From assembly GCA_963920765.1 (NCBI GenBank), contig OY987244.1, forward strand, positions 32,557,678 to 32,621,677: a stretch of DNA of 64,000 nucleotides. Direction: 5' to 3'. The DNA is from Ulota crispa. Taxonomy: Eukaryota; Streptophyta; Bryopsida; Orthotrichales; Orthotrichaceae. The first letter of the stretch is position 1. Each line of letters opens with the position of its first letter. The notes under the pieces are model-generated. The model saw only the letters and a list, made by a program, of their open reading frames with translations. It was not told where the DNA came from and did no database searches. This document shows, piece after piece, positions 322 through 63,498 of the stretch. Made by a program: the position numbers and the translations under genes.

Positions 322-1271
322 TTAATCCCTAAAGGCCTAAATAGCCCCTTGGGGGCCAAGTGGGATTTCAAGCATGTACTTCCATCTATATTACTTTGTG
401 TGATTTTTTAAAACTTTTATGAAATATGGAGAATTCAAAGATTTGCGTGGGCATCTAATTCTTTCTTCATTCCTACATTTATTGGAGAAGTTATGCATGA
501 ATTTCTGAAAAATGGGGGAGGGTGGGCATCCCAAATACTTTTTTTTAAATTGCATTTTTTTTAAACTAAAAATCTGAAATTGGTTCTTTAGATTTATACA
601 TATGTGGGAAGCTTTTAATCATTCCATTATGATTGATGAATGAGAAGTTTTAGTTTGTGGGTAGGTATGAGATTCCCAAATATCCATTCCTTTTGCCCCT
701 TGTAAAATTTTGTGCTCTACTTTTTTGAGCTCTTTGTGTGTTTTTTTTTTAAATTTTTGTTTCCAAGTTGTAATAGACTAAGATTCCTTGGTTTTCACCA
801 TTTGGACCAAAGTAATTCATATTTCTCAATTTTACATAAATCTTCCAATTTTTCCTAGTGTATATGCAAATTTCATGGCCTTACGATATTGCAATGATTT
901 ACAAAGTATGATTCACACCTCCAATTCATTTGAAAATTCTCCCACACTTAGCTAACTTGGTCTTCTACATGGAAAAAATAAACCTCAACTTTTCCTAGAG
1001 CAATTTTTTTGATATAGGAGCAATCAAAGGCTTTTGAAATTTTTGGGTAGCAAGGCAAAAAACTTTTTTTCTCACCTTAAATGTCAATATCTCAATCCTT
1101 TACATTTAGAATGAGCTGATTTTTTCCCAAAAATACCTCCCATAGTTTAGGGCAAGATCCTACAGTTGGATTTTCAAAAAAAACTTTTTTTCTACCTTCA
1201 TTCTCATTCTCCCAAAATGACAGTTTTCAATGACTTTCACAAAAAAAAGGGCTTGAACCTTTAGAGGTTAA
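322..1271 (+). mobile_element. TTAA-flanked non-autonomous DNA transposon, family A
   Basis: The left end reads TTAATCCCTAAAGG and the right end CCTTTAGAGGTTAA, so both ends carry TTAA followed by inverted CCYCTAAAGG. The 950-bp body has the same order of blocks as the copies at 11301, 27044 and (reversed) 55514: a stretch on 'catgtacttcc', a stretch on 'aattcaaagat', 'gggcatctaat', 'gcatgaatttctg', and a 3' part with 'caagatcctacagttgg'. No transposase frame is present. TTAA target duplication is typical of piggyBac; Kolobok elements also use it. Confidence 0.75.
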
Positions 1272-1598
1272 TGATTTAAGGTAAGCCCTTTAATGCCTCC
1301 AACTCTTCAAAACGGCTTCTAATTTGTTTCCTACTATTACAAAAATCTTTAACAATGAAAAATGAAGTTTCTCCATAAATTTAGTAAATCTCAATGTCTA
1401 CAATTGTAAGATAAATCTCCACTATAAAATCTATTGATTGACAAATAAACGCAATTATCAAGAAGAACTGCAAATTGAATTTGCTTATCCACTTGATCCA
1501 AAGATGAGGTTAATACATGCAGCACATAGAAAATGAAAAGTATGTTGAACGACAACTTTTTGTGTTATTTAAGTAAGGATTTTGTAAAGCTTTTCGAC

Positions 1599-1830
1599 GG
1601 ACAATGCTATTTTGTTTTCATAAAACAGTGAGCCATGAGCACTAAGCCAAGACTTTGTGAGTGGGAACCGATTTTGAGCTCAAAATCAATGAAAAATTCA
1701 CAACAATCTTTTCAAGAAATGAAATTTAAATACACAATGTACATGTTTATAGATGAGGATTTGTATTTTAATAAAAATTCAAGCTTGCAATTCACAGCTC
1801 ATGGATCCCCACTCACAATATAAGATAGAA
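1599..1830. mobile_element. Possible small element with GTGAGC-rich ends (family N)
   Basis: The left end GGACAATGCTATTTTG and the nearby 'gtgagccatgagc' recall the ends of the elements at 23776 and 17571. The right end 'agctcatgg...actcacaata' is a rough inverted match. The boundaries are uncertain. The flanking stretches 1272-1598 and 1831-2104 show nothing recognisable. Confidence 0.35.
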
Positions 1831-2104
1831 GCACTCTGTATGGATAATTTTGTGAAATCAGTTTGGGAAGAAGGTGCATTGTGATTTTGAAATCAAATGA
1901 CAATTAGCAAATGGGCAGATACGGGTTAAAAATTGCCCTCATGTTATTTTGCAATTTTATGAATAAAATATGATTTTTTGAAGACAAGGTTGTAGATACA
2001 CCTATTGTGACCTTTAGACTTGCAGTAAACCAATCATGAACCTTGGGAAAACAAATAGGGAGAAGACCAAATGAGTGAACACAAGATTATGAGAAAAATT
2101 CCCT

Positions 2105-3024
2105 TTAACCCCTAAAGGACCAAGGAGCCCACTTTGGGCTTTATGAGAACTCCGGCAGGCTCTATTGACTTCATAATTTGGAAGTTTTTCATGAAATTTT
2201 TAGGATGGATGCTACTCATCATAATCTACATGTGAAGCTTTATTTCATGTCATTCCGATAAGTATTACAAAAGTTAGAAGGTTTTTTCAATTTCAATGTC
2301 AAATTGGGCATCAAAAAATATATTATAAATTTTATTTTTTATTTTCTATAGAATTGTATAGATTGATACCTACTCAAACAAAATTGAATCACTTGATTCT
2401 AAATAATGAGGTAAGAGTTAAAAGGAGTTTTGTTTTGTGGGCAATGAAGGTAGGAAAAGGGTAGAAAAAACATATATAGTTATCTTTTACTCTCAATTTT
2501 GAAAATTTTCAAATGAAAATGAAAATGAAAGTTACTAATTGTCTGTTAGAGCATTCTCACCATTGGAATTAACAGTTTTCAAATTCTTCCAAAACTTATT
2601 AGCATATTAGTTACATCTTTCATTCATCAATACCTTTCACTTTACAATTTTTGTAAAAATGAATCCAAACTTTTTTTGGTTAAGTTTTTTTATATATGCT
2701 TTCAACCCATTTTCCAACATATTGCCAAAATTGCACAAGAAATACAACATACGTACTTTTCTCTAAAAAGTTTGAAAAACGAAACTTCACTGTTTGGAAG
2801 GACTAGAAAAGCCTACATTTTGAAATTTAGGCACATTGATCTTGCAATTGGTGGGGACATTCATTTTGAAATTTTGGGACAATGTAGTTGTGCAAGTCAA
2901 CCAATGGATCCTACGGTTGGATTTATTAAAAAATAAGTTTCAATGAAAATTTTGACCCTGGTTTGGGGACTAGTATTTTGAAGCAATTTTGGGTCCCTAT
3001 ACTCAAAAGAATTTTAGGGGTTAA
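2105..3024 (+). mobile_element. TTAA-flanked non-autonomous DNA transposon, family B
   Basis: It starts TTAACCCCTAAAGGACC and ends TTTTAGGGGTTAA. A reversed second copy lies at 28330-29245, and the two match closely along their whole length. Both copies hold an 86-residue open frame (2676-2936 here). Eight residues differ between the two copies over only about fourteen base changes, so the frame does not look constrained and is probably not a gene. There is no transposase signature. Confidence 0.8.
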
Positions 3025-4036: not shown

Positions 4037-4533
4037 TAAAAACAAAGACTTGTTCAGATATAGATTTTTCGACGATGAAAGATCATTCTGGTAAATAGTA
4101 AGATAGTTAATTGATTCAATATATATTTTCTGTAAATACATGGTGAAAGAGTTGGTGGAATTTCATCACCTATCAAATCTTAAATCATCAACAATTATGA
4201 CTATTTAAAGTCAGACTTTATTAGTACACACAATGACAAGTGTCAAAAATCATTGCTTAATTATAGGTGGTATAACTTTCATGTACTCATAGAGACATTT
4301 TTCTTGAAGTTTACAGACACCGGCTTGAAGTTTATAAATGACATTTGAATCTTGTTTGTAAAAATCGTACGAGGACAAAGTCAACTAACTTGTACCCCGT
4401 TTTAATGTCTTAGTGTTGGGTTCTTTGAGATGAGCACTAAACATTTTACATTGAGTTTTGAGCGTCCTACAACAAATGCTGAATGTTTTATGGTGAGTGT
4501 CAAAAATTTCTCCAATGAAATGTATTTATCATA
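4037..4533. other. Unassigned AT-rich sequence
   Basis: No reliable frame and no recognised repeat end. It lies between the Mutator-like element and the O-family element. Confidence 0.4.
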
Positions 4534-6831: not shown

Positions 6832-7184
6832 TTAACCCCTAAACGTCGGCCGGAACGAAAAACGTCCTTGCCTTTGAAAAAAGTCATTGTAGCCCAGAAA
6901 AAAAAAAATTGATCTGAATTCTTTTCAGAAGTGATCATAAATGCGTAGTGCACCGTGGAAGGCAAAAATAAAATTCATCAAATACACTTATAATTTTAGG
7001 TATCCCAAATCCAGAATCACTTGATTAGGTCTCAAGCTGCCCTTATTGTAATTTTCATGGAATCAGCATGTATTGTTGATTTTCGCAATTTTTTGAGGCA
7101 ATATTATTGGTGATTAGTTGCAAAATATTGTAAAAGCCAAAGTCAGGGTAGGCCATAGTGACCCACCCAATGCTTAAGGGTTAA
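6832..7184. mobile_element. Short TTAA-flanked element, family D
   Basis: The ends are TTAACCCCTAAACGTCGG and 'aatgcttaagggttaa'. The inverted part is the TTAACCCYTAA core. It is 353 bp and non-coding. The size is close to the 344-bp element at 50509, but the interiors are not clearly alike. Confidence 0.6.
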
Positions 7185-7223
7185 CAAGGAAGGGCACGTT
7201 TGTCTCACCTTTTTTGAACCAAC

Positions 7224-9592: not shown

Positions 9593-10922
9593 GGCCAGGG
9601 TGAACTGATCCCCTCATTAGTTATTACCCCCCACCTGGATGAATGGGGCCGTGAGGCTTTGTCAACTGCTCATCCATGTTGTTGGGTCAGGGTCGAAAAG
9701 TTCTGCTTGTTTACAGATAAAGGTAAAAATAATAATTTGTCCCGTATTCTGGTGATGTAAAGGATCATTGTCCGTTTGGGAGACAAATAGGATTTTCAGC
9801 AAGTACCTACAGTCTCAATTTTTGTCTTGATTTTTTGAATTTTTTTTGAAGATAGAAAAACACATTAGTTTTTGGGGAATATACTTTTTAGTCCAATCAA
9901 TGCCGAGCAAAAGTTGTGCTCAAATAAGCATTAATTTGGGGAGTCCATGCAGCAAATTTTTTTTACAAAAACTTGAGTTTTTTTTAAATTTTTTTCTTGT
10001 AAATTATATCTTTTTCTACATCTGAAGCTTTGATTCATTCCGTTTGGACTAATTATGAGAAAGTTATGGACAATCTTGTTTCTTGGGCAATTCAAGCATC
10101 TTCTTGAAAAAATAACTTATGAAGTCCATTTTTGAATGCAAGTTTAACATTTTGCAAAAAAAAACTGTTAAAGAGGGTGAAGATTGCTTGCTAGAACAAC
10201 CTCACTACAGGGATTATTGTGTTTCAATTCCATTGCAGGGTTACTAACAATGTAAGTTTTTGTTCAATCTCAAACCTTCTTCTACCTAATGTTTTTTTTA
10301 AGAATGAAAATTAAGTATTTTTTGTTTTTGTTTTTTTCCAAAGATTCTCAACTCAATTTCCCACCATAAAAAAATAAACCTCAAAACTCCGTGGTGCAAA
10401 AAACTCAAGTTAAAAAAGTTCAAAGTCTAATAATCTAATCATGCAAGGTGCAAAAAAAAGCTTGTTTTTTACACTTTAAACGCAAATATCTTGCAATCTA
10501 AGTGGTCAAAAAATTTGAGTTTCATTTTATACACTCTTACAGTAGTCTAGTACAAGATCCTATGGTCAGATATGCAAAAAGACCAATTTCCAAAAAAATT
10601 ACTCTTTGCCACAGAAATAGCAGTTTTGAGTGTCTTCTGACAAATTAAAGGCCATGGTCCTTTACTCCTTTAGGGGTTAATTGTATCCTCACTATCCTCC
10701 ACCGTAGTTCTAGACAAATTCAAGATTTTTGAATTTCAATGTGATTCAAAATTCTGAAATCCAATGATACATAATTTTCCAAACTCACACATTTTTGAAA
10801 ATATGAAAAAGTGTAACTTTTTCACCTTGATCCAGCAAACTCATTCATAAAGCAGTTGATTGAGCTCCCGGTCCCATTCATCATCCAGGCGGGGGCAATG
10901 AGGGGGTCAGTCTACCCTGGCC
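9593..10922. mobile_element. Inverted-repeat element with GGCCAGGGT ends, carrying a nested TTAA element
   Basis: The arms at about 9593-9680 and 10838-10922 are inverted: GGCCAGGGTGAACTGATCCC against GGCCAGGGTAGACTGACCCC, continuing through 'cctggatgaatgggrccg' and 'caactgct'. Nearly all of the interior is occupied by the TTAA-flanked element at 9755-10680, so the host element is only about 400 bp. The superfamily is not clear. Confidence 0.6.
9755..10680 (+). mobile_element. TTAA-type element, family A-like, with decayed left end
   Basis: The right end CCTTTAGGGGTTAA is intact. The left end is decayed to 'gatgtaaaggatc', but 'attgtccgtttgggagacaa' just inside matches the family A starts at 11301 and 27044. 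The body also has the 'acaagatcctatggtcagat' block near the 3' end. Confidence 0.65.
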
Positions 10923-11109: not shown

Positions 11110-11216
11110 CTTATATGGGAAAGCAGCGCATCGAACGAGGTTGGTATTAAATGATACTTAAGGTGGAAGCACCCATAGTTAATAACCCCCCATTCTCAAC
11201 TAGTAAGAGCATCTCT

Positions 11217-12450
11217 ACCGGTGGTTCTGGCTCACTTAAACTGAATGAAAAGTAGCCCGGCCCTTCTCATGCCCCTCTCAAATTTTTTTATTTGGCGAGT
11301 CTAGTCCCTAAAGGAGTGTTGTCCCTCCGGGAGACAGGTGGGAGTTTGGGCATGTACCTTTGGACAAGCTACTTTGTGTGATTTTCTGAAACTTTTATTG
11401 AAGGTGGGGAATTCAAAGATCTACACGGGCATCTAATTTTTTCCTCATTTCGACAATTATTGAAGAAATTATGCATGAAAATCTGAAAAGCAAGGGAGGA
11501 CTGCCCACCCGGGCAGCCCAAAAACTTCTTTAAAGATTATTATTATTTTAAGTAAAATTTGAAATTGGTTCTTTAGATTTTTTAATAGGTGAGAAGCTAT
11601 GAATCATTCAATTTTAATCAATGACATGAAAGTTATGAGGAGTTTTTATTTGCAAGCAGTTATGGAATTTCTACTCAAAAATAAACTTTGAAGTCCTTTA
11701 TTTTACTCAATTTTTATTATTTTGGAAAAAAAAAACCAAAGGATGTAGATTGTTTATCACAACATTATGACCGTTGGGATTTCCATTTTTCATTTTATTA
11801 ATTAAATTCTTAACAATTTAGTGATTTGACTCATTCTCTACTTCTTTTTACTTACTGATTTTTCCTATGTGTTGTATAGTTCCAATTGATTTGAAAATTC
11901 TCCCACACATAGCTAACTTGATCTCCTACATGGGAAAAATAAAGTGCAAAGTTGCGTAGAGCAATTATTTTCATGTAAAAATGGTCAACAGCTTCTGAAA
12001 TTTTGTGGCAACTTGAAAAAAACTTTTCTTTTCACTTTAGATGTAAATATCTCACTCATGTCCATCCGGAATGACCTGAATTTTTTTTCCACAAGTACCT
12101 AATCCAATCTAGGGCAAGATCCTACAGTTGGATTTTCCAAATTTCAAAAAAAACTACCTTCTTACTAACCCCCCCAAAAGTGGCAGTTTTGAGTGATTTT
12201 CATTGAAAAAATGGCTCAGTCCTTTAGGGGCTAGCAAGCCACTCTCCAATCCACTATTCATGCACTATTCACCTTAAGTTTAGTGAGTTTTATTCTCTAC
12301 TTCCCTATATAAGTGGTCAACTGCTTATTTATGGGGTGTGTTGGAGTGTAAGGCCACCTTTTCAAAGAGCATGGGTGGAGATTGAGAGCCTTCAGGCCTT
12401 GCCAAACTAGATGGAAAACTTTGAGCGAGTCTCCACCAGTGGAGATGCTC
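11217..12450. mobile_element. Tourist-like (PIF/Harbinger) MITE with TAA duplication, split by a TTAA-family element
   Basis: The ends are GAGCATCTCTACCGGTGG and CCACCAGTGGAGATGCTC. TAA is present on both sides (11214-11216, 12451-12453), the 3-bp TWA duplication of PIF/Harbinger elements. Without the inner insertion it is about 300 bp. Confidence 0.75.
11301..12234 (+). mobile_element. Family A element inserted at CTAG instead of TTAA
   Basis: The ends are CTAG-TCCCTAAAGG and CCTTTAGGGG-CTAG. The body matches the family A copies at 322 and 27044. The four outermost bases are CTAG at both ends, where all other readable copies have TTAA, so these bases behave as target-site duplication. Confidence 0.75.
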
Positions 12451-13513: not shown

Positions 13514-14473
13514 TTGGTGCCCTAAAGGACGAAGTGGCTGTTGAACAGCCACTTGAGAACTCCGGTAGGGTCATATGGAGTCAGTTTTTATTGGATGTTC
13601 TCAAAATTGTTACACAAGGTGTGGATAATTATTCCCTAAGTGGAAATGTAATTTTTTCCCCAATCGGATGCCTGGTCCAAAAGTTATGTTGCCCAAAAGA
13701 AATTGGGCAGCTTGGGCAGTTTGGGCATCTTTGGAGAATCTTATGCTAAAACTTTCATTGACTTTTGAAATTTGGCAAGCATGTTACTAAAAGAACATGG
13801 TGTACAATTGTCAAAAAAAAAATAGAGCTCTCACATCACATTTTGAAGGGAGTCAAACTTTGTTAACTATGTTTGGGTAGTTTCAAGAAAAAATAAATCC
13901 TCTAACTTCAAGCCCTGTTATCTTTCAATCTATAAATTCAAAGCTCTTTAAACTTTTTTTCATATGTTTGATATGTTTGTCTCTAATTTTTCACCGTTCA
14001 GATTTCAAATAAAAGACTTCCTCATTGCACTAGAAATCATGAAAGAATGACTAATGTATTGCCAATTCACTAAACCTCCTTACATTGGAGGATGATTTTG
14101 AACAAGCTAGATTGTATTTTTGCATCTGAATTTTTTTGTGAGTGAACCTAACAACATATGCTTGTGAATGGTCAAAAAGCTCAAATTTGTGTAAAGCAAA
14201 AAATTTAATCTAGGAAGGGTCCAAAGTCTGTTGACCTTGTTTTGCAGGAACAAAGAAAAGTAGTTTTTTTCACTTCAAACATTATAATCTTACAATCCAC
14301 ATGGTCAAATGGGCTGAAATTTTTGCACGTATTACTTTATATGTTTTGCACACTTTTGTACAGTTGAAATTGAGAAAAAAGTTTTTTAATTTCAATTTTG
14401 GACAATGCACTAAATGTTGACAGTTTTTTTGAGATCTTTTCTCAAAAAATACCCTTGATCCTTTAAGGGTTAA
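13514..14473 (+). mobile_element. TTAA-type element, family C copy 1
   Basis: It starts 'gccctaaaggac' (TTAA not readable) and ends CCTTTAAGGGTTAA. Its body shares 'aacagccacttgagaact', 'ttggatgttctcaaaatt' and 'ttcaaacattataatctta' with the copy at 14982. It sits inside the MULE, so it inserted later than the MULE. Confidence 0.7.
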
Positions 14474-14981: not shown

Positions 14982-15269
14982 TTAATCCTACAGGATCAAG
15001 TGTCTGTTTAACGGACATTTAAGAACTTGATGGGTCATACAAAGTCATTTTTTATTAGATGTTCTCAAAAATTTTACAAAAGGTGTAAATATGTATCTTT
15101 CACATGTAAATATAGTTATTTCCCTAATCGGATGTCCGGTTCAAAAGTTATAATGCCTAAATGAATTTGGGCAGTTTGAGCATCTTTGGAGAATCTTATG
15201 CTTAAACTCTTATCAAGTTTTGAAATTTGGCATGTATGCAACTAATAAAATATGGTATACAATTGTCTA

Positions 15270-15300
<31 letters not shown>

Positions 15301-15947
15301 GAGCTTGCTCATCATATTTTTAGAGGAGTCAAACTTTGTTAACTATGTCCAAGCAATTTCAAGAAAATTTATTTTCTTCTAACTTCAAGGTGTAAAATAT
15401 TTCAATTTATAAATCCAAAGCTCTTGAATTTTGTTTTACAGATTTTGAATGTTTCTCTAATTTTTCTCTATTTGGATTTCAAATAAAATACTTGCTCAAT
15501 GCAAAAGAAAACATGAAGGTATGACTAATGTATTACCAATTCACTAAACCTCCTTGCATTCCAGGATGATTTAGAATAAGTTAGATTCTATATTTGTTTT
15601 GAAAATTTTCATGAGGTAACCTAACATCATATACTTATGAATGATTAAAAAGCTTGTTTTTATGTAGAGCAAAATATTACTCCAAGAAGGCTCAAAGTAT
15701 GTTGACATTCTTTTGCAAGAATGAAAAAAAGGTGTTTTTCCCACTTCAAACGTTATAATCTTACAAGCTACGTGGTCAAATGGGCTAGAATTTCTAACCC
15801 ACATTGACTTGATTGTTTAATCACACTTTTGTATGGTTGAAAAAATTCAAAAAAAAAGTTTTCATTTTCTATTTTGGGCAATGTACTGAAAGTTGGCAGT
15901 TTCTGAGATTTTTTCTCAAAAAACACCCTTGGTCCTATAGGGGTTAA
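14982..15947 (+). mobile_element. TTAA-type element, family C copy 2
   Basis: The left end is TTAATCCTACAGGATC and the right end 'ggtcctataggggttaa', so TTAA is present at both sides. The 966-bp body aligns with the copy at 13514 over its full length, including the 3' block 'aaacgttataatcttacaag'. A (TA)n tract lies inside at 15269-15291. Confidence 0.8.
15269..15291. repeat. (TA)n microsatellite
   Basis: Uninterrupted TA repeat of about 11 units inside the family C element; the other copy lacks it, so it grew after insertion. Confidence 0.85.
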
Positions 15948-16320: not shown

Positions 16321-17235
16321 TTGACCCTTCAAGGACAACACCCATTTTCACTAAATTCATCAAAAGCAAGGGCGGTAAACTTAGATGCTCTGTTGAAGTA
16401 AGTATGGACCCGGTTTGAATAATCCAACCATATGAATGGGAAGAACATTTTTTTTCTTGTAAAATATCAGGATTTCAATCAAACCTATCGTTGGAAGTGA
16501 AGTACTATAATGATTGAGTGAGTCATAGGTGGAAAATCTCTAGTTTTTCATACTTGTTTAGTTTTTAATATTACTACTTCATGGGAGTTATGTTTGAGAA
16601 GAACCTTATGTTTCTAGAAAGTACGGTTTCCCACCTTTCCAACAAGAGTAGTTTCACACAAAATGGATAAAAATAGAAATCACAAGGTGTAGCTAAGTGG
16701 ACAAAAAGGGTCAAAAATCCCACTTTAAAATCTTTCCTAAAACAATTCTACAATACAATTGATAAATGTCATGGAAAATCCAATTGGTGAAAACAATCAA
16801 GAATTGGCCTTAAATGTAGGATGACAAATTTTAAAAATGAAATGACAACACCATTTCAATAGATTTTTAGATACTACAATTATACCACTACCATATAAAG
16901 AAACAATACAAGCATATTTCTTAAACAATTTGAAATTTTTTAGGACCACACAATTCAAATCTGAGATTTAACTTGGATATTTAATGTATTGTGTTGTTGC
17001 TTTGATCCATTTTTGACCAAAAATGGATACGTATTTTGAGACCAAGTTGTACAAATACCATTATTTGCCAACTCACATACTTGATTTCATTATTGCTTTT
17101 TAAGTTGGAAGCAAAATTCTTGTAAGCACATGCGTTCTGCCAAATCAATTTCTAAATTGCTGAACTATTTTACTCTATAAGCCAAAAACCATTCCTTGCA
17201 ACCAAAATATGGCTGTGTGGTCCTTAAAGGGTTAA
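16321..17235 (+). mobile_element. TTAA-type element, family F
   Basis: The left end is TTGACCCTTCAAGGAC, one base away from TTAA. The right end is GTCCTTAAAGGGTTAA. It is 915 bp and non-coding. The interior is unlike families A-C. The 15948-16320 stretch before it is unassigned. Confidence 0.55.
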
Positions 17236-23088: not shown

Positions 23089-23285
23089 TTAACCCCTATA
23101 GCTCTAAACACCTTTTTTTGACAACATAGCAATTTTGGGTAGCTCATTACCAATGGTTTTTTTTTTTTTTTTTTTTTTTTTCTCTGAAATATTCTCACAT
23201 GATGTGTCCAATGATGTGTCCAATGAATAGCTTTAAGGTCCAAGAAATTTTATAACTTTTGCCTTTCAGAGTTGCAGGATTAGAG
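23089..23285 (+). mobile_element. Truncated TTAA-type element, family G
   Basis: It starts TTAACCCCTATAGCTC and matches the element at 36196 through 'acacctttttttgacaacat' and 'catgatgtgtccaatg'. The match is lost after about 23285 and no right end was found. A poly(T) run lies at 23158-23180. The stretch 22742-23088 is unassigned. Confidence 0.55.
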
Positions 23286-23747
23286 AATTTGGAAATATTT
23301 TTATTTAAGCACATATTGTAGAAAATTAAGCATTTTGGCTGTGCAAATAAGAATTTGGTCTATTAGAATGAAGCATTGGATTTCTCACTTTTACGCTACA
23401 AATGTTATGTTCATTTCTAAAATTTATTTGCTTGTCTAAAAGACTCAAGATTTAGTTTCCTTCAAACTTGTACTAGTTTTAATAGCATATACTCATAATT
23501 TTCTTTCATGTTACAAATCATTGAATTTGGACTATTCATGTAATCATGGACATTTTACGTCCTAGAACATTGAAGATCCTCCACTATTTTACATATTTAT
23601 TTTCAGAAATTTCCGTGTACTTTGATTTTGATTTATTCTCAATTTTTCGTAAGCATTTTTCTGTTTGTTTTGCAAGTATCTTCCAACATTTTTCAAATAA
23701 AAACAAGTTTTAAATTGTTAATTATGAAATTTGAATAACATGCAATA

Positions 23748-25649: not shown

Positions 25650-26300
25650 TTAACCCCTAAATGCCCAAGCAACCAGATTTGGGTCTTTACAAAACTTTGA
25701 AGATGAATATAACCTTCTCAATCATTATTTTCAGTATTTCTTTTCAATATAATTTTGTTTTGAAGTCAACTTTCAACATCAAAAGTCTGATTTTGAAAAT
25801 GAAAATTAATGATTTTTCTACTCAAGATTTTGTACAAGGGTGTCCACTGCAATTTTGAGTTTTCTAGTGTAGGAAGATCTTGAGAATGAGCCTCAAATAC
25901 ACTAGAGCTTGGAGAAAAATCCATATTAGAAATCCATTTAAAAAAAATGTAGGAGTAGATTTTTGAAACCGTAAATTGATTAGAGTTAGACATGTAATGA
26001 GCTTAAACCTCATATTTTTTTAGTGACCAACTTTTCATATTTGACATGTGAAATGAGGATTAGAAAGCTTTAAGTCACTTTTGCACTTTTAACTCCCTCA
26101 TGTTCAAACGTTATAATCTTACAAACTATAAGTGATATTGTTGTGTTTTCTTTTTTCATGTAATCTCTAACATGTTTAGTTTAAATTTGTATGGTTACAA
26201 TTGTAAAAAACTTGATGGAATTTATGAAAAGGTTGCTTGATTGTTTAGTTTCATGGAAAGTCCAAGAAGCCCAGATAGGGCTTGGGCATTTAGGGGTTAA
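25650..26300 (+). mobile_element. TTAA-type element, family H copy 1, with perfect inverted ends
   Basis: The ends are exact inverted copies for 21 bases: TTAACCCCTAAATGCCCAAG at the left and CTTGGGCATTTAGGGGTTAA at the right, plus one more base. It is 651 bp, and open frames in it are short. A reversed copy lies at 30683-31336, and the 57837 element shares these ends. Confidence 0.8.
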
Positions 26301-27043: not shown

Positions 27044-27974
27044 TTAACCCTTAAAGGATGGTTGTCCCTTCGGGGGACAAATGGGATTTTGAGCATGTAT
27101 CTATGGCTAAACTATTTTGAGTAATTTTTTGAAAATTTTATGAAAGATGGGGAATTCAAAGATCTAAGTGGGCATCTAGTTTTTTCCTTATTCTTACATT
27201 TGTCAAAGGGCTTATGCAAGAATTTTTGCAACCTGAGGGAGGGAGGGCAATTTGGGCAACCCAAAAACTTCTTTAAAAATCACATTTAAAAAAATGAAAA
27301 CTTGAAATTGGTTCTTTAGATTTTTTTTGATATGTAGGAAGCTTTGAATCATTCAATTTCAATCAATGAGATGAAAGTTATGAGATGTTTTAGTTTGTGG
27401 GCAATTACAGATCCTCTATTCTAAAGTAAACCTTGAAGTCCATTATTTTCCACAATTTTCAATATTTTGGAATAAAAACTAAACCTAAGGAAGTAAATTG
27501 TTTATTACAACATTATAATTGTTGGGATTTGTATTTTTCATTTCAATGATTAAATTCTTAACAATTTAGTGTTTTGACTCATTCTCTACTTCTTTTTACT
27601 TACATCTTTTTTCCCATGTGTTGCATAGTTCCAATTGATTTGAAAGCTCTCCCACACATGCCTAACTTGGTCTTCTACATGGATAAAATAAACCTCAACT
27701 TTGTGTAGAGCAATTTTTTTCATGTAAGAGTGGTCAAAGGCTTCTAAAATGTTTGGAGAGCACAGGAAAAACCTTTTTTTCACTTCAAAGGTAAATATCT
27801 CCCTCCTCTCCCTCTAGAATGACATGATTTTTCCCCACAAGTACCTCTTCTAGTCTAAAGCAAGATCCTATGGTTGGCTTTCCCAAAAAAAATACTACCT
27901 TCTTACTTATCCCCTAGAAGTGGCAGTTTTTAGTGATTCTGGTAGGAAAAAAGGCTTGGTCCTTTAGGGGTTAA
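27044..27974 (+). mobile_element. TTAA-type element, family A
   Basis: It starts TTAACCCTTAAAGGATGG and ends GGTCCTTTAGGGGTTAA. Near the left end 'gttgtcccttcgggggacaa' forms a small palindrome, also seen in the 11301 and 62613 elements. The body matches the other family A copies. Confidence 0.8.
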
Positions 27975-28329: not shown

Positions 28330-29245
28330 TTAACCCCTAAAATGATTTTGTGTTTAGAGGCCCAAAACTGCTTCAAAACACTAGTCCCCAAACCAGGGTC
28401 AAAATTTTCATTGAAACTTACTTTTTCACAAATCTAACTATAGGATCTTTTGGTTGACTTGCACAACTACATTGTCCCAAAATTTTAGAATGAATGTCCC
28501 CACCAATTGCATGATCAATATGCCTAAACTTCAAAATGTAGGCTTTTCTAGTCCTTCCAAACAATGAAGTTTTGTTTTTCAAACTTTTTAGAGAAAAGTA
28601 CGTATGTTGTATTTCTTGTGCAATTTTGGCAATATGTTGGAAAATGGGTTGAAAGCATATATAAAAAAACTTAACCAAAAAAAGTTTGGATTCATTTTTA
28701 CAAAAATTGTAAAGTGAAAGGTATTGATGAATGAAAGATGTAACTAATATGCTAATAAGTTTTGGAAGAATTTGAAAACTGTTAATTCCAATGGTGAGAA
28801 TGCTCTAACAGAAAATTAGTAACTTTCATTTTCATTTTCATTTGAAAATTTTCAAAATTGAGAGAAAAAGATAACTTTATATAATTTTTCTACCTTCCTA
28901 CCTTCATTGCCCACAAAACAAAACTCCTTTTAACTCTTACCTCATCATTTGGAATTGAGTGATTCAGTTTTTTTGAGTAGGTACCAATCTATACAATTCT
29001 ATAAAAATAATTAAATAAAATTTAGAATATATTTGTTGCTACCCAGTTTGACATTGAAATTGAAAAAACCTTATAAGTTTTGTAATACTTATTGGAATGA
29101 CACAAAATAGAGCTTCACATGTAGATTATGATGAGTAGCATCCATCCTAAAAATTTCATGAAAAACTTCCAAATTATGAAGTCAATAGAGCCTGTTGGAG
29201 TTCTCATAAAGCCCAAAGTGGGCTCCTTGGTCCTTTAGTGGTTAA
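28330..29245 (-). mobile_element. TTAA-type element, family B copy 2 (reversed)
   Basis: The plus-strand ends are TTAACCCCTAAAATG and GGTCCTTTAGTGGTTAA. It matches the 2105-3024 copy in reverse. The 86-residue frame is on the minus strand at 28678-28418. The surrounding sequence suggests that it entered a TTAA in the end of an M-family MITE. Confidence 0.8.
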
Positions 29246-29557
29246 TTTGGGAAAACACTTTTCCAAAATGGATTTTGGAGATACAAAATTTATCATTTGT
29301 GAGAATATTTTGGTGATTTAACCTCTAAAGGATCAAACGGTTGTTCAACAACCACTTGAGAACTTGGGTAGTGTCATATGAAGTTATTTTTTATTAGATG
29401 TTCTCAAAATTGTTACATGAGGTGCAAATATGTATCTCCCACATCAATTTGAGATCTTGAAGAGATCATCAAAAAATCACTCTAAATCACCTAAAAACTC
29501 TTAAAATAAAAACTTCAAAAGTCCCAAAATTGAGGTTTTTTCCCAAATCAATGAAGA
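29246..29557. mobile_element. Remains of an M-family MITE with a truncated family C element inside
   Basis: After the family B end the sequence 'tttgggaaaacacttttcc' resembles the M family just inside its TTAA. Near 29535 'ttttttcccaaatcaatgaa' resembles its right end. Between them, 29318-29443 starts TTAACCTCTAAAGGATC and matches the first ~125 bp of family C, without a right end. Confidence 0.45.
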
Positions 29558-30218
29558 TCATGTTTCATTCAATGTTTTCTTTTCATTTTACAAGGATAGA
29601 GTGACCCACACCCAACAATGCAAGGAAGTAAGAAATAAATGGACAAAAGTGGATAGAATTGTCAATATTTGCTTGTTCATCCATAAACTACACTACAAAT
29701 AAATTTCATCCGCAAGTTGACAAATTTTATGTTGGCCTTGGGGAGGGATTTGACAATTTCATCCATTTTTTTACCATATTTTTTTAGTGTTATGGTAGCT
29801 AGTGACAATTTGAGGCAAATTTTAGCTAGAAAAAAGGAACCTTGGTAAACATGATATGGGCAGCTCAATGCAAAAGAATATGATCCACGTAGACTTTTCT
29901 ATCCGTTCTAGAGTTCCGGTCTCTCCAGGTAGTCCACACAAGAGTGAAGGCCCATTCCCACCAAATCAGTGGACGCACTTTGGTGAGAGACATTTTGTCT
30001 TTTTGCTGAACGTGGGTCCACCGTTTTGGTCCACAAACAAGTCAGCTGAACGTTTTGGGGGTGCATTAGGGAAACAAGTTTGCACAAATTGATGCATTCC
30101 CCCACTTTAAGCAACCAATGAGGGAGCTTAGAATGGATTCCATGAAAGCACCATCCACATTGCTTTTATGGAATCCACTTCCCATCCACTTTTTAAAAAT
30201 TTTGCATATAGTTAATTA
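29558..30218. other. Unassigned stretch, GC-richer at 29830-30110
   Basis: Short overlapping frames lie on both strands at 29856-30114. No domain, repeat end or splice structure convinced me. 'ggaatcca' repeats near 30140 and 30175 form a small palindromic pair. Confidence 0.3.
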
Positions 30219-30635: not shown

Positions 30636-30682
30636 TAGTTAGTTGCATGCAAAAATTAAAAAGGGGATGGGAGGTGGATTCC

Positions 30683-31336
30683 TTAACCTTGAAATGCCCA
30701 AGGCACTTTTTGAGTTTCTAGAAATTTGTTCTAAGTTGAAAAAAAAGCCAAAATTTGGATAAGTTGTATTAATTTTTTATAAATTGTAACCGTATAAAAT
30801 CAAAATGCATATGTTAGAGATCACATAGGAAAAGGAAACACAAGAGTATCATTTATGGATTGAAAGATTATAATGTTTGATCAAGAGGGTGTTAAAATTT
30901 TGAAAATGACTTGAAGCTTTTCAATCCTCTTTTCACATGTCAAATCTAAAAAAATGGTCACATGAAAAATATGGGGTTGAAGGACATAACATACATAACT
31001 CCAATCAATTTACAGTATTTCAACATCTCCTTTACAATTTCTTTAAATGAATTTCTAATGTAAATTTTTCTCCAAGGTCTAGTGTTTTTGAGGTTCATTT
31101 TCAAGAGCTCTCACCACTAGAAAAGTCAAGATTGCAATGGACACCCTTGCACAAAATCTTGAATAGAAAGATCATAATCAATCACTTACAAAATTGATTT
31201 TTTGATGCTAAAACTAGACTTCAAAAAGTATAGTTAAAAAATAAAATCTAGTAAGAATAGCAACTTAGCTAGGTTTTATAGAAGTTCAAAATATTTTCAA
31301 CACCATGATGTGGTGCCTTAGACATTTAGGGGTTAA
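30683..31336 (-). mobile_element. TTAA-type element, family H copy 2 (reversed)
   Basis: The ends are TTAACCTTGAAATGCCCAAG and 'agacatttaggggttaa'. The interior matches 25650-26300 in reverse, for example 'atggacacccttgcacaaaa' against its complement there. It ends about 550 bp before the second DUF3455 gene and about 340 bp before its TATA box. Confidence 0.75.
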
Positions 31337-36195: not shown

Positions 36196-37098
36196 TTAAC
36201 CCCTAAAGCATTGAACACCTTTTTTTGGCAACATAGTGATTTTGGGCAACTAACTACCTATGGGTATTTCATTTTTCTTCTTTGAAATTTTCACACATGA
36301 TGTATCCAAGGAGTAGCTTTGAGGCCCAACAATTTTCATAACTTTTGACTTCATGGTTCAAAAGTTATTGCATGATATGTAGTTTTTTTTGCTAGCCAAA
36401 AAAACTTTTTTTTAAATTACATTTTTGACTTTTGTTTTTTGAAATTGGTTCTTTTAATTTATATATACTTGGGAAGCTTTGAGTTATTCCCTTTATATCA
36501 ATGAGATGAAAGTTATGAGGATATTTTGTTTGCGGGTAGTTATGGATTCTCTACTCTAAAATAAACTTTGAAGTCCATTAATTTACTCAATTTTCAATAT
36601 TTTAGAAAATAAACTAAACCAAAAGATGAAGACTGTTTATTACAACATTGCAACCATTGGGATTGGAATTTTTCATTTCCGTAATTAAGTTCTTAACAAT
36701 TTAGTGGTTTGAATCAATCTCTACTTTTTATTTACTATTGATTTTCCATGTGTTTTACAATTCCAAATGATTTGAAAATTCTCAAGTGTATTCCCAACTT
36801 GCTTTGAAGAACAAATCCAAGAAATTGCAACCATTTTGGAATTTTTGTTATAAAAATATGACCTTGTGAAATGCAGTTGCCCGGAATTTTGCAAAAACAA
36901 AAAATGGCTTTTTATCAATTCAAACTCAAATATCTAACAATCTACATGGTGAAAACTCCTGAATTTTTTTCCACATCTTTTGAAACTAATGTAGTACAAG
37001 ATCTTACAGCTACATTTATCCAAAAATGTATATATCTAAAATTGTGATACTTGCCCTAGAAATGACAGAAAATTTGAGCTTAGTGATGTAGGGGCTCT
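36196..37098 (+). mobile_element. TTAA-type element, family G/A
   Basis: The left end is TTAACCCCTAAAGCATTG. The right end is decayed to 'gatgtaggggctct'. The first ~170 bp match the truncated copy at 23089. The middle ('tgagatgaaagttatgagg', 'tactctaaaataaac') matches family A, so it looks like a mosaic or a diverged subfamily. It is the last transposon before CSN2. Confidence 0.6.
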
Positions 37099-37512
37099 AC
37101 ACTATTAGAAACAGTACTCAAATATTGCGACCCACTATATACTACATCAATTTAAGTTATTATAGATTGTTTTATGAGTGCACCTCACAAATCCACTTGC
37201 TTCTTGAAGTAGTGCAAGTTAGTGTTATTAGTGTGGGGGTGCATTAAATAAAATAGCTTGAGTAGCCCCAATAGGCACCCGGCAATATCCACGTCAGCAG
37301 AAAGGCAATACACCGTCAGCGCTTAGACAACCGATCCTGATCGCTCGTGAATCAAGGGCCCAGATGCCTCGGGACCGCCTGCAAAGAATGGACTGCGGAA
37401 GACAGAGAAGCTCTTTCATACTTGGCGAAGTCATCGAGTAAGTAGATCGTTTTTGTCTGTGCAGCTGCTCGATTTCGCCTTCTTCCGGCGTCGGCGGCTG
37501 CCGATCGCAGCC
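37099..37512 (+). promoter_or_regulatory. CSN2 upstream region and 5' leader
   Basis: From about 37265 the sequence becomes GC-richer and non-repetitive, as expected for a promoter and leader. 'ccacgtcagc' at about 37291 has an ACGT core. A short leader intron is possible between 'gag|taagta' near 37437 and 'tgtgcag' near 37463, but I cannot confirm it. No TATA box was seen. Confidence 0.4.
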
Positions 37513-43799: not shown

Positions 43800-44029
43800 T
43801 TAACCCCTGAACGTCACAAAAGCCCTTTGCGACCGCATGTATGGTCGTATGTACAAACGTATTTGAGCTGCTTTGAGGGCTTCTGAAATTTTTTATGCAA
43901 CCACCATCATACAACCTTTTAACATGTATGATTGTCACACTTAACGTCCAGCTGATTCAAACTTCTGAACACTGGTTGCAACCGTATTTGGTACCGTAGC
44001 TCCAAAGCTCAAGGGCCTTCAAGGGTTAA
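43800..44029. mobile_element. Short TTAA-flanked element, family E
   Basis: The ends are TTAACCCCTGAACGTC and 'ggccttcaagggttaa'. It is 230 bp with TTAA on both sides. The start resembles family D (6832: CCCCTAAACGTC). Confidence 0.6.
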
Positions 44030-50508: not shown

Positions 50509-50852
50509 TTAACCCCTAACCATCCAAGAGGATGAAAATTGTCCTTTCAGTGCCAAAAACACACCCCCAAGGGTGGAAAAAAAAAATCAAATTTTTTTTC
50601 TTGAAAGTGGTCAGAGAGATGTGCCACATCACTGAATGCCAAAAGTAGCTGCTTTCAATGCTTCCATATTTTTTAAAACACCAATTTGTAAAGAGATGTA
50701 CAAGGTCCTTGCTGCCATTTTTGTGAGGGCAGGATACACTATTGACTTTTCCCCCTTTTGAGGAGAATATTATCTCTCTTGGACACATGCCACAGGTTGT
50801 GCGCTGCCGAGGATCTGAGCCACGGGTTTAGGGTCAGTCCTTTAAGGGTTAA
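50509..50852. mobile_element. Short TTAA-flanked element, family D-like
   Basis: The ends are TTAACCCCTAACCATCC and 'cagtcctttaagggttaa'. It is 344 bp, close to the 353 bp of the 6832 element. A minus frame inside (50788-50516) is not supported. Confidence 0.6.
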
Positions 50853-53522: not shown

Positions 53523-53524
<2 letters not shown>

Positions 53525-53715: not shown

Positions 53716-54582
53716 TTAATCCCCAAAGGTCCGAGTTCATTTTTTTTTAAAGCACAAAGAATTGCCGTTTTTAGTGTTTTGATCTTAAGAATTTATTTTT
53801 TCAAATTTTTATAAGTTCAACCATGGGATCTTGCATAGTACTTATGCAAAGAGCCAAAGTGAAATTTTCATGAGGTTTGACCGTACAGATTGAGAGATTT
53901 GAGCATTTGAAGTTGGTGTAAAAGTTTTTTTTTTATCTTTGCCCAAAAATTTTAGGGCCCTTTGACCAAATGTGGTGGACATTTTTTGCAACAAGGGTGT
54001 TGTAAAGAGTTGACTAACATGCTCTAAATCATGTTAGGCATATCTCTACCAACTTTTAAGGTCATCCAAAACATGGAACACACCCTACGTGGCCTTGCAT
54101 TGCGAGCATGTGCTTGAAATTTCCATAACACTAGAGTTAAACCAAATTTGTGAGGGATATTTTGAAAATATGAAAATCCAAATGGTAGGTTGAAAGAGCT
54201 AACTACATTGACAACCACAAAAAAATGAAATCTCTAATAGCTATGCAATTCAAAGTTAGTGTATTTTTCAAACACATAAATGGATTTATCTAGTACATTG
54301 TTGCTTTTGGCATGTTTCAATGAAGTGTTATCCTTTCATTGGTGGACCTTGAGAGAAGTCAACAAAATTTGGTATGCCCAACCTACCCCTTGAACGTAAA
54401 GAAGCACATAAAACACTTAGAACCGGGAATCTAATTTTAATAAGAATTGTACTTGCAAATAGCCCTTGTAAAACTCTATTTCATAAATAAAATTCAGACA
54501 ATTTGATTAAAATTTTCCAATAGAAAAAACCTGCCCAAAATCCATGTTGCCCCCCATAAGGACAATGGGCTGTTAGGGGTAA
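53716..54582. mobile_element. TTAA-type element, family K
   Basis: The left end is TTAATCCCCAAAGGTCC and the right end 'gggctgttaggggtaa'. The left interior ('ccatgggatcttgcatagta', 'cagattgagagatttgag') recalls the reversed 3' parts of families A and C. It abuts the next element and shares the GTAA. Confidence 0.5.
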
Positions 54583-55345
54583 CCCTTGAGCGCCCATGCC
54601 GATTTCACCAAAATCAAGGTTTTTGGAAACCGGCAACTTTGAGGCATTGTATCTCAATCAATTGGATGATCCACAAAAAGTGACCATTGAAAATAGCGGA
54701 ACATCTACTTAGAAGAAGGTTTGCAAATTTTGGGAACAATTGACCGTGGGAGATGGGAGACTACTGTATAACATTCAATCAAACAACATGTGATGACAAA
54801 ATCTCATTTTTTGGTAGGTAGTTGCTATTTGATGATTTTTACAAAATTCTATAAGCCCCTGATTCATCTTAAATTTTGTGAGCATCAAGATTAGATGTGA
54901 ATGTACACACTTGTAAATTACCAAAGATTGCACTTCTTTTTATGTCAAGTTTTAGGGCTTCAATAGGCTATTGCACGGAAAACAATGACTAGCACAGTCT
55001 ATGACGGTTGCCATAATAAGGATCTAGAACATGCTTGAACCCTTGCCAACAACTTTCCCACTACCACAAAGCTTACACAATGAAGCTTACGCGGTATATT
55101 GACCGGTTGCAGCCTGTAAAACGCCGCTTGCCACCACGCCACGTAAGGTGTTTCACCCAATCAAATCTCTTGTAGCACTTGTACAACATTTGGCTTTCCT
55201 TGCCATTACTCCATTGGCATGGATGACTTGAATGCCTTCATAATTGTAGTTTGCAGCAAGACCAAAAAGTTAGATCCAGTGCCTCAAAACAAGACTTTAA
55301 AGCTGGGGAGGCAATATATGGGGCGATAGGGCGCTCAAGGGTTAA
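54579..55345. mobile_element. TTAA-type element, family J
   Basis: The left end is GTAACCCTTGAGCGCCC and the right end GGGCGCTCAAGGGTTAA, inverted over 16-17 bases apart from the first base. It is 767 bp. The ends differ from the CCTTTAGGGG type, but the TTAACCC core is kept. Confidence 0.65.
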
Positions 55346-55513: not shown

Positions 55514-56506
55514 TCAACCCCTAAAGGACTAAGCCCCTTTTTTTGTGAAAATCATTGAAATCTGCCACTTCTAGGAAGTTTAGTAGGAAGTTTAGTAGAA
55601 AGAGATTTTATGTTTTGTTTTTGGAAAATCCAACCATAGGATCTTGCCCCGGACTAGAAGAGGTACCTGTGGGAAAAAAATCAGCTCACTCTAGATGGAG
55701 AGGAGTGAGATATTTACATCTAAAGTGAAAAAAAAAAAAAATCTTTCCATGTTGCTCAAAATTCTCAAAAGCCTTTGATCACTCTTATAACAAAAAACTT
55801 GCTCTACCCAAAGTTGCACTTCATTTTTCCCATGTAGGAGATCAAGTTAGGTATGTGTGGGAGAATTTTAATATCAATTGGACCTATACAACACATGGGA
55901 AAAACTAATAAGTAAAAAGAACTATACAACACATGAGAAAAGATAGTAAGTAAAATGAAGTAGAGAATGAGTCAAACCACTAAATTGTTAAGAATTTAAT
56001 TATTGAAATGAAAAATGCAAATCCCAACAATTATGATGTTATGATAAACAATCTACTTTCTTTGGTTTAATTTTGTTTCCAAAATATTAAAAATTGAGTA
56101 AAATAAAGGACTTCAAAGCTAATTTTAGAGTAGAGAATCCATAACTGCCCAACAACAAAAACTCTTCATAACCTTCATCTCATTGATTGAAATTGAATGA
56201 TTCAAAGCTTCTCACATATAAAAAAAATCTAAAGGACCACTTTCAAAAAACAAACTTCAAAAAATGTAAATTTTAAATAAGTTTTTGGGCTACCCAAATG
56301 GGCAGTCTTCCCCAAATTTTCACAAATTCTTGCATAACTTCTTTGTCAAATGCTGGAATGAAGAAAAAAATTAGATGCCCACATAGATCTTTGAATTCCC
56401 CACCTTCAATAAAAGTTTCAAAAGATCACACAAAGTAGTTTAGCCATAGGTACATGCCCAAAGTCCAACCTGTCCCTCAAAGGGACAATGGTCCTTTAGG
56501 AGTTAA
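55514..56506 (-). mobile_element. TTAA-type element, family A (reversed)
   Basis: The plus-strand ends are TCAACCCCTAAAGGAC and GGTCCTTTAGGAGTTAA. The interior is family A in reverse ('caagatcctatggttgg' complement near 55622-55640, 'cccctcaaagggacaatgg' near 56472). At 993 bp it is the longest copy; a small duplication 'ggaagtttagta' at 55575-55600 adds length. Confidence 0.75.
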
Positions 56507-59563: not shown

Positions 59564-59566
59564 TTA

Positions 59567-61279: not shown

Positions 61280-61739
61280 CCAGATTTCATATTTGAAACC
61301 CCGTATTGATGTGGGCTGTGCCCCCCCGGGGAGCAATGGCTTGCAAGATGCCCTTGACCCGCAACATGGAACTCTGGCACTATTTGCAGCGCTGGCGGCC
61401 TGGCCGGCTCTGTTGCACGTGCCGCAGGCGGCTGGGCTTCTGGGTCTCCTCGGGATTCGCGGCCACTGATCTCCGGAGCCGGGGAACCGCTCCTGCGCCG
61501 GAACCGCCTCGGAACCCCCGCCGTTCTCCGTCGGTCCATGGCTCCATGCCCCATGGGCCCATGCCCCACATGCAATCCGTATTCCAGACTTCCCGTTTGT
61601 GGAGGCTCTCGCTTGTGGGGCCCCCTGCCCAGCTCAGGATCCTCGAGGTTCGACTTCTTTTTTGGGTTCATTTTCCTACCCCGAGGATTTTTTGCCCATA
61701 ATTTACGTGGTGCAGCTCCAGACTTTCATAACATTGTTA
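61280..61739. other. GC-rich patch of unknown origin
   Basis: Positions 61310-61670 are the most GC-rich of the window. Both strands stay open for 130-140 codons (plus 61306-61701, minus 61671-61249), with proline- and arginine-rich translations without a known domain. It ends exactly at the foldback element at 61740. It might be a fragment carried by a transposon, or a promoter patch. Confidence 0.3.
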
Positions 61740-62263
61740 GGGCATCATCAATCCAGCACTGGGTATTTGGCAGGGCCTGGGACTGCAAAAACACTGCTAT
61801 TTATTTTTTGACTAGTGTATAATTAGAAAATGAGATTACTATCATTGGAAGCGTATACAAAAACTCATCAAACAAATAAAATGACATATGATATTGGAGA
61901 TTGGACAAACAAACTAACGCCCATTGAAAAGATAGCTAAAGGACAAACAACACGGCAAACCATGCCTAATAAAGAATAATTAGATAGTGGCACTCCAAAT
62001 TTCAGAATTTGGAGTGCCACTATCTAATTATTCTTTATTAGGCATGGTTTGCCGTGTTGTTTGTCCTTTAGCTATCTTTTCAATGGGCGTTAGTTTGTTT
62101 GTCCAATCTCCAATATCATATGTCATTTTATTTGTTTGATGAGTTTTTGTATACGCTTCCAATGATAGTAATCTCATTTTCTAATTATACACTAGTCAAA
62201 AAATAGCAATGTTTTTGCAATCCTAGGCCTTGCCAAATACCCAGTGCTGGATTGATGATGCCC
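61740..62263. mobile_element. Near-perfect hairpin MITE (Tourist-like), copy 2
   Basis: The ends are GGGCATCATCAATCCAGCAC and its complement. TTA is at 61737-61739 and 62264-62266. The arms meet near 62002 ('ccaaatttcagaatttgg'). It is very close in sequence to 21068-21588, including 'ggacaaacaacacggcaaac'. Confidence 0.85.
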
Positions 62264-62612
62264 TTAACAAGGCTGTAAACTTCCCCCCATGGGGAGGCAT
62301 ATTCCTCCCCAGATTCTTAGGGGGGGCTTTAGTTATAATCTAAGGCTTCTCACTAGCTGGTTGGTTGTCTTATAGCACTAGAGGGTTCCTGTTTCTGTGG
62401 GGAGAAATGGGAGCCCTCCAGCACTGGCAAATAATGTTATGTTCATCACAAGTAAGGTAGAAATACCATAAACGGTTACTACCCGATAATGGCAGAGTAG
62501 AGTGTTCTTAAACCAACAAGAGCTGGCTTTGAAAGAGATTTTAGAAAGATGCTCTTTCCTCACATTTGATTGGATCAAACTTATTTCAGAACAAGGTTCT
62601 AGAGGTAGCCAT

Positions 62613-63498
62613 TTAACCCCTAAAGCCCCAAAGTCCCCTCGGGGGACTTTAGGGATTTTGGGTAGACTTGTGTAACCTCAAATTTTTATATTATTTTTTG
62701 AAACTTTTTATGAGTGTGTAGGAATGTACAAGGTTTGTGGGATGCAAAAAATCATGTGCTTATGTCACACAGTTCACAAGTTATGGGCTTTTTTTGGCCA
62801 AAAGTAGTTTCAGGGGCAGCTTGGGCAAGGGAGAAAATATTTACTTTGGAGGGGGGGAGCAAGGAGGGATTGCCACATGTTGTTTTGGTGGTCCCCATTA
62901 TTCCTCTTTCATTTCCAATTAGGAGGTCAGATTGGACTTTGGGAGCTTCTAAATTGTAGATTTTAGAATTTTTTAACCTTTCTTTTTTTGACATTTGAAG
63001 TACATGTTCATCTCCAAACACACCATTTGGATTTTCCATATCTAGAAACATGTGGTGGGAAACTTCACTCAAAAATGTCAAAGTATATTTGCAAAACTTG
63101 TCATATAGTGGCATTGCAATATTTTTTAGGATGTGTTTTGTGTCTTTGATTGCCTTGAGAATTGGTATACATATGTCTAACTTGATTACCCATAAGATAA
63201 AATTAGAACTTCAAGGTCCGTAGTGCAAAAAAAATCAGCAAATGTCAGTCAAAGCCATCTAAAATTTTTGGGCTCAATGAAAAAAAGAAAAACTTTTCTC
63301 TTCAAATGCTCATAACTTTCAATTTGTACAATCAAATGTCACAAAATTTTTAATGCTTCTTCTTCTACAAGTGCATTACAAGATCTTATGGTTAGATTTT
63401 CAAGAAAAGTATCTTGTTGTAATTTTTGATGAACGTAACAGTAGGGGCAATTTTGAGTGGTTTTTGGCAAAAAATGGCCTTGGTAGTTTAGGGGTTAA
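62613..63498 (+). mobile_element. TTAA-type element, family L
   Basis: The ends are TTAACCCCTAAAGCCCC and 'ggtagtttaggggttaa'. 'agtcccctcgggggacttta' near the left end is a palindrome like that of family A. The 3' part has 'caagatcttatggttagat' as in families A and C. A 120-codon minus frame (63114-62752) has no domain. Confidence 0.75.

Follow-up and report, generated by a model that had tools for sequence, protein, structure and literature searches.

The window analyzed here is a stretch of 64,000 nucleotides from the moss Ulota crispa (C3:32557678-32621677 of a 275-Mb genome in 157 contigs), and it holds 17 complete gene-less elements and five fragments of a type that ends in an inverted repeat next to the tetranucleotide TTAA (Table 1). 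The complete elements have their right end 0.23-1.0 kb from the left one (230-993 bp) and sum to 13,276 bp, or 21% of the window. They are very probably non-autonomous piggyBac transposons, which would be moved in trans by the transposase of longer elements of 5.0-6.3 kb that lie elsewhere in the genome.

The elements and their abundance

An initial annotation of the sequence had listed 22 positions as TTAA-bounded ends, adding up to roughly 16 kb. Seventeen of these positions proved to be left ends of complete elements, two of them (13514 and 57837) off by one, and 9755 is not itself a TTAA end; the total of about 16 kb fits if the unpaired fragments are added to the complete elements. The unpaired positions were 9755, 23089, 29318, 36196 and 53716, where the adjacent sequence, taken to nominal ends, is related to other stretches. 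Of the complete elements, twelve lie between two TTAA and one (11301) between two CTAG; in the remaining four (13515, 16321, 54579 and 55514) the right flank is TTAA and the left one an altered 4-mer.

To count paired ends we used a strict model (at least 13 of 14 matches to TTAACCCYTNARNG, in inward pairs), with the reversed window and 20 Markov sequences as controls. The window contained 14 left and 17 right ends forming 12 pairs, whereas its reverse gave a single pair and the Markov sequences gave no pair at all; at 14/14 matches the window gave three pairs and both controls none. Together with the 17 complete elements, these counts confirm that the TTAA-bounded swarm is real. A looser 12/14 model did not separate the window from its reverse (24 versus 29 pairs), and a loose pair finder that returned 41 hits on reversed and 29 on real sequence was dropped. 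The motif TTAACCC alone was modestly enriched in the window (27 versus 17 reversed), and not enriched in a 30-kb sample of random genomic DNA, made up of six 5-kb stretches (12 versus 13 reversed). The longer TTAACCCYT was enriched in both (25 versus 6 in the window, 9 versus 0 in the sample).

When interiors were linked at 150 or more aligned bases (BLAST; the five fragments entered with nominal ends), the 22 stretches fell into 12 sequence groups and the 17 complete elements into 11, in line with the earlier description of at least eight unlike interiors behind shared ends. The ends mostly begin CCCYT, and the match between left and right ends ranges from 12/12 to imperfect. Many ends, in the window and in loci fetched from the genome, also have a short palindrome at about positions 13-48, the sequence of which differs between families. 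Among 61 ends, a stem of at least 6 was found in 23% (3.4% of shuffles) and of at least 7 in 13% (0.9% of shuffles); this statistic treats related ends of one family as separate observations, and its shuffles preserve base content only. The palindrome lies just inside the inverted repeat and is possibly a transposase-binding feature.

A genome-wide search recovered 22,165 TTAACCCYTWAARG ends (11,155 + 11,010), compared with 60 (29 + 31) for the backward pattern. If each element had two such ends, the count would correspond to about 11,000 elements, a figure that rises if some ends have decayed. The same pattern finds seven ends in the window, where the 17 elements and five fragments have up to 39, and scaling by this ratio gives about 60,000 elements as a rough guess. 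In the random 30 kb, 6.8% was covered by a library of 19 window stretches, with hits in three of the six stretches, and about five elements were recognizable there by their ends; the window is therefore richer in them than the genome on average. For two families the whole genome was searched, with the best 40 candidates scored for each. For the 2105-3024 family (1373 candidates; 40 rows, the window's two copies included), identity was 91-100% and the full 1-920 was covered in 37 of 40 rows. For the 57836-58742 family (2623 candidates, 41 rows), it was 83-100%, the lowest value belonging to a short piece.

Table 1. Elements and fragments in the window (L numbers are loci compared with them; group A is one of the sequence groups)
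Feature	Positions	Strand	Remarks
Non-autonomous element, group A	322..1271	+	TTAA both sides; 743-1271 matches L025 3' end, 75%
Element	2105..3024	+	TTAA both sides
Element	6832..7184	+	TTAA both sides
Group A-related fragment	9755..10680	+	Only right end intact: TTAACCCCTAAAGG, at 10680
Group A element	11301..12234	+	CTAG both sides; inside another repeat, empty copies mostly with one CTAG
Element	13515..14473	+	Left 4-mer changed, right TTAA; 88% identity to L043 copy
Element, same group as 13515	14982..15947	+	TTAA both sides
Element	16321..17235	+	TTGA / TTAA; 77% identity to L040 copy
Fragment, one recognizable end	23089..23600 (end nominal)	+	Related to 36196
Element	25650..26300	+	Identical 12-bp ends CCCCTAAATGCC; TTAA both sides; end class as L012
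Group A element	27044..27974	+	TTAA both sides; right part matches L025 3' end, 76%
Element, 2105-3024 family, inverted	28330..29245	-	94% identical; TTAA both sides
Fragment, one end	29318..29900 (end nominal)	+	First ~120 bp resemble 13515 and 14982
Element, group of 25650, inverted	30683..31336	-	TTAA both sides
Group A relative	36196..37186 (end nominal, right border not fixed)	+	
Short element	43800..44029	+	TTAA both sides
Short element	50509..50852	+	TTAA both sides
Fragment	53716..54560 (far border nominal)	-	53716-54282 matches L011 3' end, 70%, 595 columns
Element	54579..55345	+	12/12 identical ends CCCTTGAGCGCC; GTAA / TTAA
Group A element, inverted	55514..56506	-	TCAA / TTAA; 55516-55882 matches L025 3' end, 74%
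Deletion derivative of L012	57836..58742	-	Shares both L012 ends
Element	62613..63498	+	TTAA both sides; paralogous empty site in L059, single TTAG

Transposase genes and the elements that carry them

As had been supposed, the mobilizing transposase is not in the window: tblastn with 33 transposase domains gave no match there at E ≤0.01, and no listed match to DDE_Tnp_1_7 (PF13843) falls inside it, the nearest listed one being at C3:32451054. In the whole genome, the search for this domain (116 scored of 528 candidates) yielded 120 matches, the best at E 1.3e-73, and every contig from C1 to C11 has them. None was found in 14 control genomes, a weak control since all are bacteria or archaea. 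When one transposase was compared with PDB by phmmer (E ≤1), the only matches were to the piggyBac transposase of Trichoplusia ni (6x67, 3.6e-20) and to piggyBat (9c0f, 1.4e-16). Among the 33 domains, three aligned positions that we take to be the catalytic sites of piggyBac transposase have D in 30, 25 and 28 domains, respectively. In 21 domains D stands at all three; replacements are mostly by N, the pattern of decayed copies. The T. ni sequence in this alignment stops short of the third site. Downstream in the same frame, stops ignored, the motif CxxC...CxxC...C...C...H (for example CKICEKVMNRFCPGCRGAYMCNGDCFYKVH in L019) was present in 7 of 22 loci; three others had it with a single change, and it was not seen in the other 12; from its composition and position, it is presumably the C-terminal Cys-rich domain of piggyBac. 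Ten listed match rows have no internal stop. At C1:1180709-1181995, two piggyBac-domain matches share one stop-free frame of 563 aa, a candidate for an intact or domesticated gene. A search of phage records and viral contigs for relatives of the L040 transposase found none.

A tree of the 33 domains resolved three deep clades with good support (5, 10 and 18 rows) and separated all 33 from its sole outgroups, T. ni piggyBac and piggyBat, with a warning from the program that the long branches of these two meet. The ratio of nonsynonymous to synonymous substitution rates (dN/dS) could be computed for 6 of 13 pairs, synonymous sites being saturated in the other seven, and values at dS 1 to 2.4 are rough. 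It was 0.06, 0.11, 0.15, 0.16 and 0.20 in five old pairs, which therefore seem, from these sequence comparisons, to have diverged under purifying selection on the protein, and 0.57 in the youngest pair (L009/L018). We give an even chance to the proposal that a piggyBac population has persisted and radiated here since deep time, with at least three old, selected clades that have their own ends and non-autonomous retinues, in tens of thousands of copies. A somewhat smaller chance goes to several horizontal arrivals, instead of one old vertical stock, as the source of the three clades: the branches that join them are long and seven pairs are saturated, whereas the grouping of all 33 domains apart from the two outgroups speaks weakly for common stock, given that long branches meet. 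Either history is compatible with a non-autonomous piggyBac swarm in the window. It is very improbable that the transposase copies are contamination, or that they stem from one recent transfer out of an animal or a fungus. Animals are where piggyBac is best known, and the small contig C97 has a bacterial look, but the matches lie on each of C1-C11, form three deep clades, have dN/dS clearly below 1 where old pairs are compared, and are accompanied by very numerous related short elements.

Transposase-bearing elements were delimited by looking for ends around the domains. Flanks of 1.5 kb at 30 loci revealed almost no ends and wider flanks were needed; around 8 of the 16 domains viewed in this way, pairs of TTAA-CC ends were accepted, 5027-6343 bp apart (L042, 5230 bp; L044, 5308; L041, 5027; L012, 5746; L013, 5586; L014, 5102; L016, 5288; L017, 6343). 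The best pair is that of L012 (14/14). At L011 and L025 only the 3' end fits, and it is of the type seen in the swarm (TTAACCCCTAAAGGCCCAAG and TTAACCCCTAAAAGACCAAG). The L010 domain has TTAACTCCTAAGCG 3340 bp upstream of it and, on the downstream side at 1557 bp, TTAACCCCTAAGCA, which were not counted as a pair; the pair finder required CC beside TTAA and hence passed over it.

Several window elements have 0.1-0.6 kb of terminal DNA in common with these longer elements. The closest relation is that of 57836-58742 to L012: positions 57836-58422 correspond to the last 586 bp of L012 (85% identity) and 58629-58742 to its first 114 bp (76%), both matches reach the terminal TTAA, and 206 bp between them are unmatched. 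This element thus has the mark of a piggyBac miniature inverted-repeat transposable element (MITE), namely that its two termini both recur in an element with a transposase gene, and the arrangement indicates a deletion derivative. In 322-1271, 11301-12234, 27044-27974 and 55514-56506, 358-537 columns match the 3' end of L025 at 74-78%, and all four matches come within 2 bp of its terminus. In the other window families a single end matches, or neither does.

Long members, the coding content of which the initial annotation had named as a possible refutation, encode a piggyBac transposase and share terminal DNA with window elements, which supports piggyBac over Kolobok, the other superfamily that it had mentioned. 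Kolobok shares the TTAA duplication, but its termini are 5'-RR...YY-3' (PMC9587614), whereas the window ends are CCC...GGG, and where relatives with ends of this kind have a transposase it is of the DDE_Tnp_1_7 type; although no search was aimed at the Kolobok transposase itself, we consider it highly unlikely that Kolobok moves these elements.

Some observations weigh against mobilization of the window elements by piggyBac transposases. Stops occur inside most transposase match rows, and no pair of ends was accepted for half of the 16 loci with wide flanks (L039, L040, L043, L010, L011, L015, L023 and L025). The L016 pair is weak (10/14, equal to a discarded L010 pair), L041 and L044 each have a second partner of equal score, and the pair search had no shuffled control. 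Moreover, no transposase-bearing relative was seen for the 6832, 43800 and 50509 families.

The correspondence between clades and ends is also not clean. L011, L012 and L025 all belong to the clade of ten and have CCCCTAAA ends, but L016 and L023 of the same clade end otherwise (CCYTRTAYTGCC; CCCTTTAGTG). L010, in the clade of 18, has CYCCTAAGC, and the remaining ends are CCCTTTA (L013), CCCCTTGAGG (L042, L044), CCCYTCA (L041, L017) and CCCTTSACC (L014). For single lineages, a match between enzyme and ends is thus a hypothesis.

Insertion sites and the proposed mobilization

Just outside CCCCTAAAGGACC, TTAA was present in 87 of 100 listed places (of 9,486; first base not G; control 2). The other 13 were TTAG (three), ATAA (two), AAAG (two), TTAT, TTTA, CTAG, CTAA, CTTA and ATAT. 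The element with CTAG on both sides, 11301-12234, lies in a separate high-copy repeat (GAGCATCTCTACCGG...), seen at window positions 11180-11300 and 12235-12360. When its flanks were joined, 46 rows of this repeat matched (best 40 of 1,225 candidates); 42 crossed the junction, and 38 of these had the same length as the query stretch. Of 27 exact-match places, the junction was a single CTAG in 22, the rest being TTAG (three), CAAG and CTAA; with up to two mismatches there were 304 places in all, versus none for the control. A second empty site was found for 62613-63498, the only one of the 17 elements with an empty site in the fetched loci: L059, at 86% identity, has a single TTAG in place of the two TTAA of the filled site. 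Since both empty sites have a single 4-mer, the 4-mer belongs to the target, which is duplicated, and is no part of the element. The empty-site comparison called for at the outset thus revealed the 4-bp target-site duplication of piggyBac, once at CTAG beside the same CCC ends. The idea that TTAA belongs to a longer inverted repeat of a CACTA, Harbinger, hAT or Mutator element, with the real duplication further out, gains something from the richness of this genome in CACTA and Harbinger transposase matches, but it is refuted at 11301-12234, where CTAG stands on both sides and once in the unfilled host repeat, and at 62613-63498, where the L059 site joins at the 4-mer, and sits badly with the 13 non-TTAA ends, so that we assign it next to no probability.

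The inverted-repeat ends of piggyBac elements are CC[C/T]T, of 12-19 bp (PMC2872659), and the window elements have CC[C/T]T ends. These ends, the 4-bp duplication, the transposase genes enclosed by such ends and the element sharing both ends with one of them are direct observations. As far as sequence can tell, the window elements are members of the piggyBac superfamily and not merely similar to it.

The non-autonomous set would consist of MITEs and somewhat longer deletion derivatives, and the longer elements (about 5.0-6.3 kb) elsewhere in the genome would supply the piggyBac transposase. This enzyme is predicted to recognize ends of the type TTAA-CCCYTNARNG, to excise the element and to insert it at a new TTAA, or sometimes at a 4-mer close to TTAA, leaving a 4-bp duplication. 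Gene-less copies that retain their ends could then be mobilized in trans. We infer the binding, the mobilization in trans and the service of each transposase lineage to the families whose ends match it.

Related systems and other features of the genome

The T. ni piggyBac element has CCC ends, a TTAA duplication and a Cys-rich domain. The elements described here resemble it and piggyBat in the DDE_Tnp_1_7 domain, the D-D-D sites, the C-terminal Cys-rich motif, the TTAA duplication and the CCC ends. Unlike both, they live in a land plant, with many diverged lineages side by side, and the transposase-bearing elements of 5.0-6.3 kb are longer than the T. ni element of 2472 bp (PMC10803768). A closer parallel is found in coral, where TTAA-flanked MITEs with CC[C/T]T ends (CMITEs) occur beside piggyBac-like AmiPB transposons, and one CMITE family is tied to a transposon by its ends, as described with only weak similarity adjoining them (PMC2872659). 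In U. crispa one family is likewise linked by its ends, but one element shares 586 + 114 bp with a transposase-bearing element, and copy number is large. The window elements are short, gene-less, high-copy and bounded by inverted repeats, like plant MITEs of the Tourist, Stowaway, hAT, Mutator and CACTA types, from which they differ in transposase superfamily and duplication.

Reports of piggyBac in plants are sparse. A survey of MITEs in 207 plant genomes, four of them bryophytes, works with five superfamilies and Micron, and its main text names neither piggyBac nor TTAA (PMC12550479). The abstract of one article mentions, with no detail, that piggyBac was isolated from plants (PMC10813416). 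PiggyBac copies are entered in the repeat tables of the fern Ceratopteris (1,230 copies, 122 kb, 0.00%; PMC6890710) and of Dracaena (38 copies, 2,143 bp; PMC6294377), and in a moss paper the two text matches were to the word piggybacking (PMC10619864). No title or abstract opening in the literature covered, which left out most subscription papers and Repbase, described a piggyBac system from mosses or any other land plants. If the proposed persistent and radiating population is real, it would be the first land-plant piggyBac system described in full, with both parent elements and their derivatives; the superfamily is known, and the novelty lies in the host, the scale and the number of old lineages that coexist. 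Many diverged transposases with thousands of substrates would offer a natural test bed for the co-evolution of transposases and ends, and possibly a source of plant-adapted tools from a transposon that is a workhorse of animal genetics and scarcely mentioned for plants. Plant repeat pipelines with five DNA-transposon superfamilies may mislabel such elements. In the moss Ptychostomum knowltonii, terminal inverted repeat elements are put at 29.13%, CACTA being the largest part (PMC11704416); one idea is that moss CACTA content is partly mislabelled piggyBac, but the present genome does hold many true CACTA transposase matches.

These CACTA matches (150 scored of 596 candidates) and those to Harbinger transposases (150 scored of 278) are abundant genome-wide, and DNA transposons in general are abundant in this genome. 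That the DNA is from a plant, as first supposed, is borne out by a plastid contig, C157, with rbcL and a 312-aa frame, which we take to be accD, in a stretch of 29.8% G+C, and by a chlL-like match. AT-rich plastids like this one are typical of mosses and liverworts. The chlL-like match, a NifH-family match with a chlN-like neighbor, lies beside a run of N on a large contig (L047, C7:4302007); we assume that the two are plastid chlL and chlN, genes that angiosperm plastids do not have. By themselves these features point to a land plant without flowers, probably a moss. C97 (L046) is a small contig of bacterial-looking composition and content, with a RuBisCO-family match. The L047 fragment and C97 are likely features of assembly or contamination.

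Within the window, no Rfam match reached the gathering score. A DUF3455 protein frame is present at 31874-32473 on the + strand (E 1e-13), and a frame at 8560-9000 on the - strand resembles it, with no Pfam match at E ≤0.01. A foldback repeat at 4515-5641 and 30192-30662 also occurs in or near L012, L022, L025, L034, L038 and L043. Long near-perfect palindromes lie at 61739-62264 and 21068-21588, with 200-bp arms that are 100% complementary at 61802-62205. They have many copies genome-wide (best 40 of 339 candidates), with ends GGGCATCATCAAT and TTA-like flanks, presumably marking a foldback element of the Tourist/Harbinger type.

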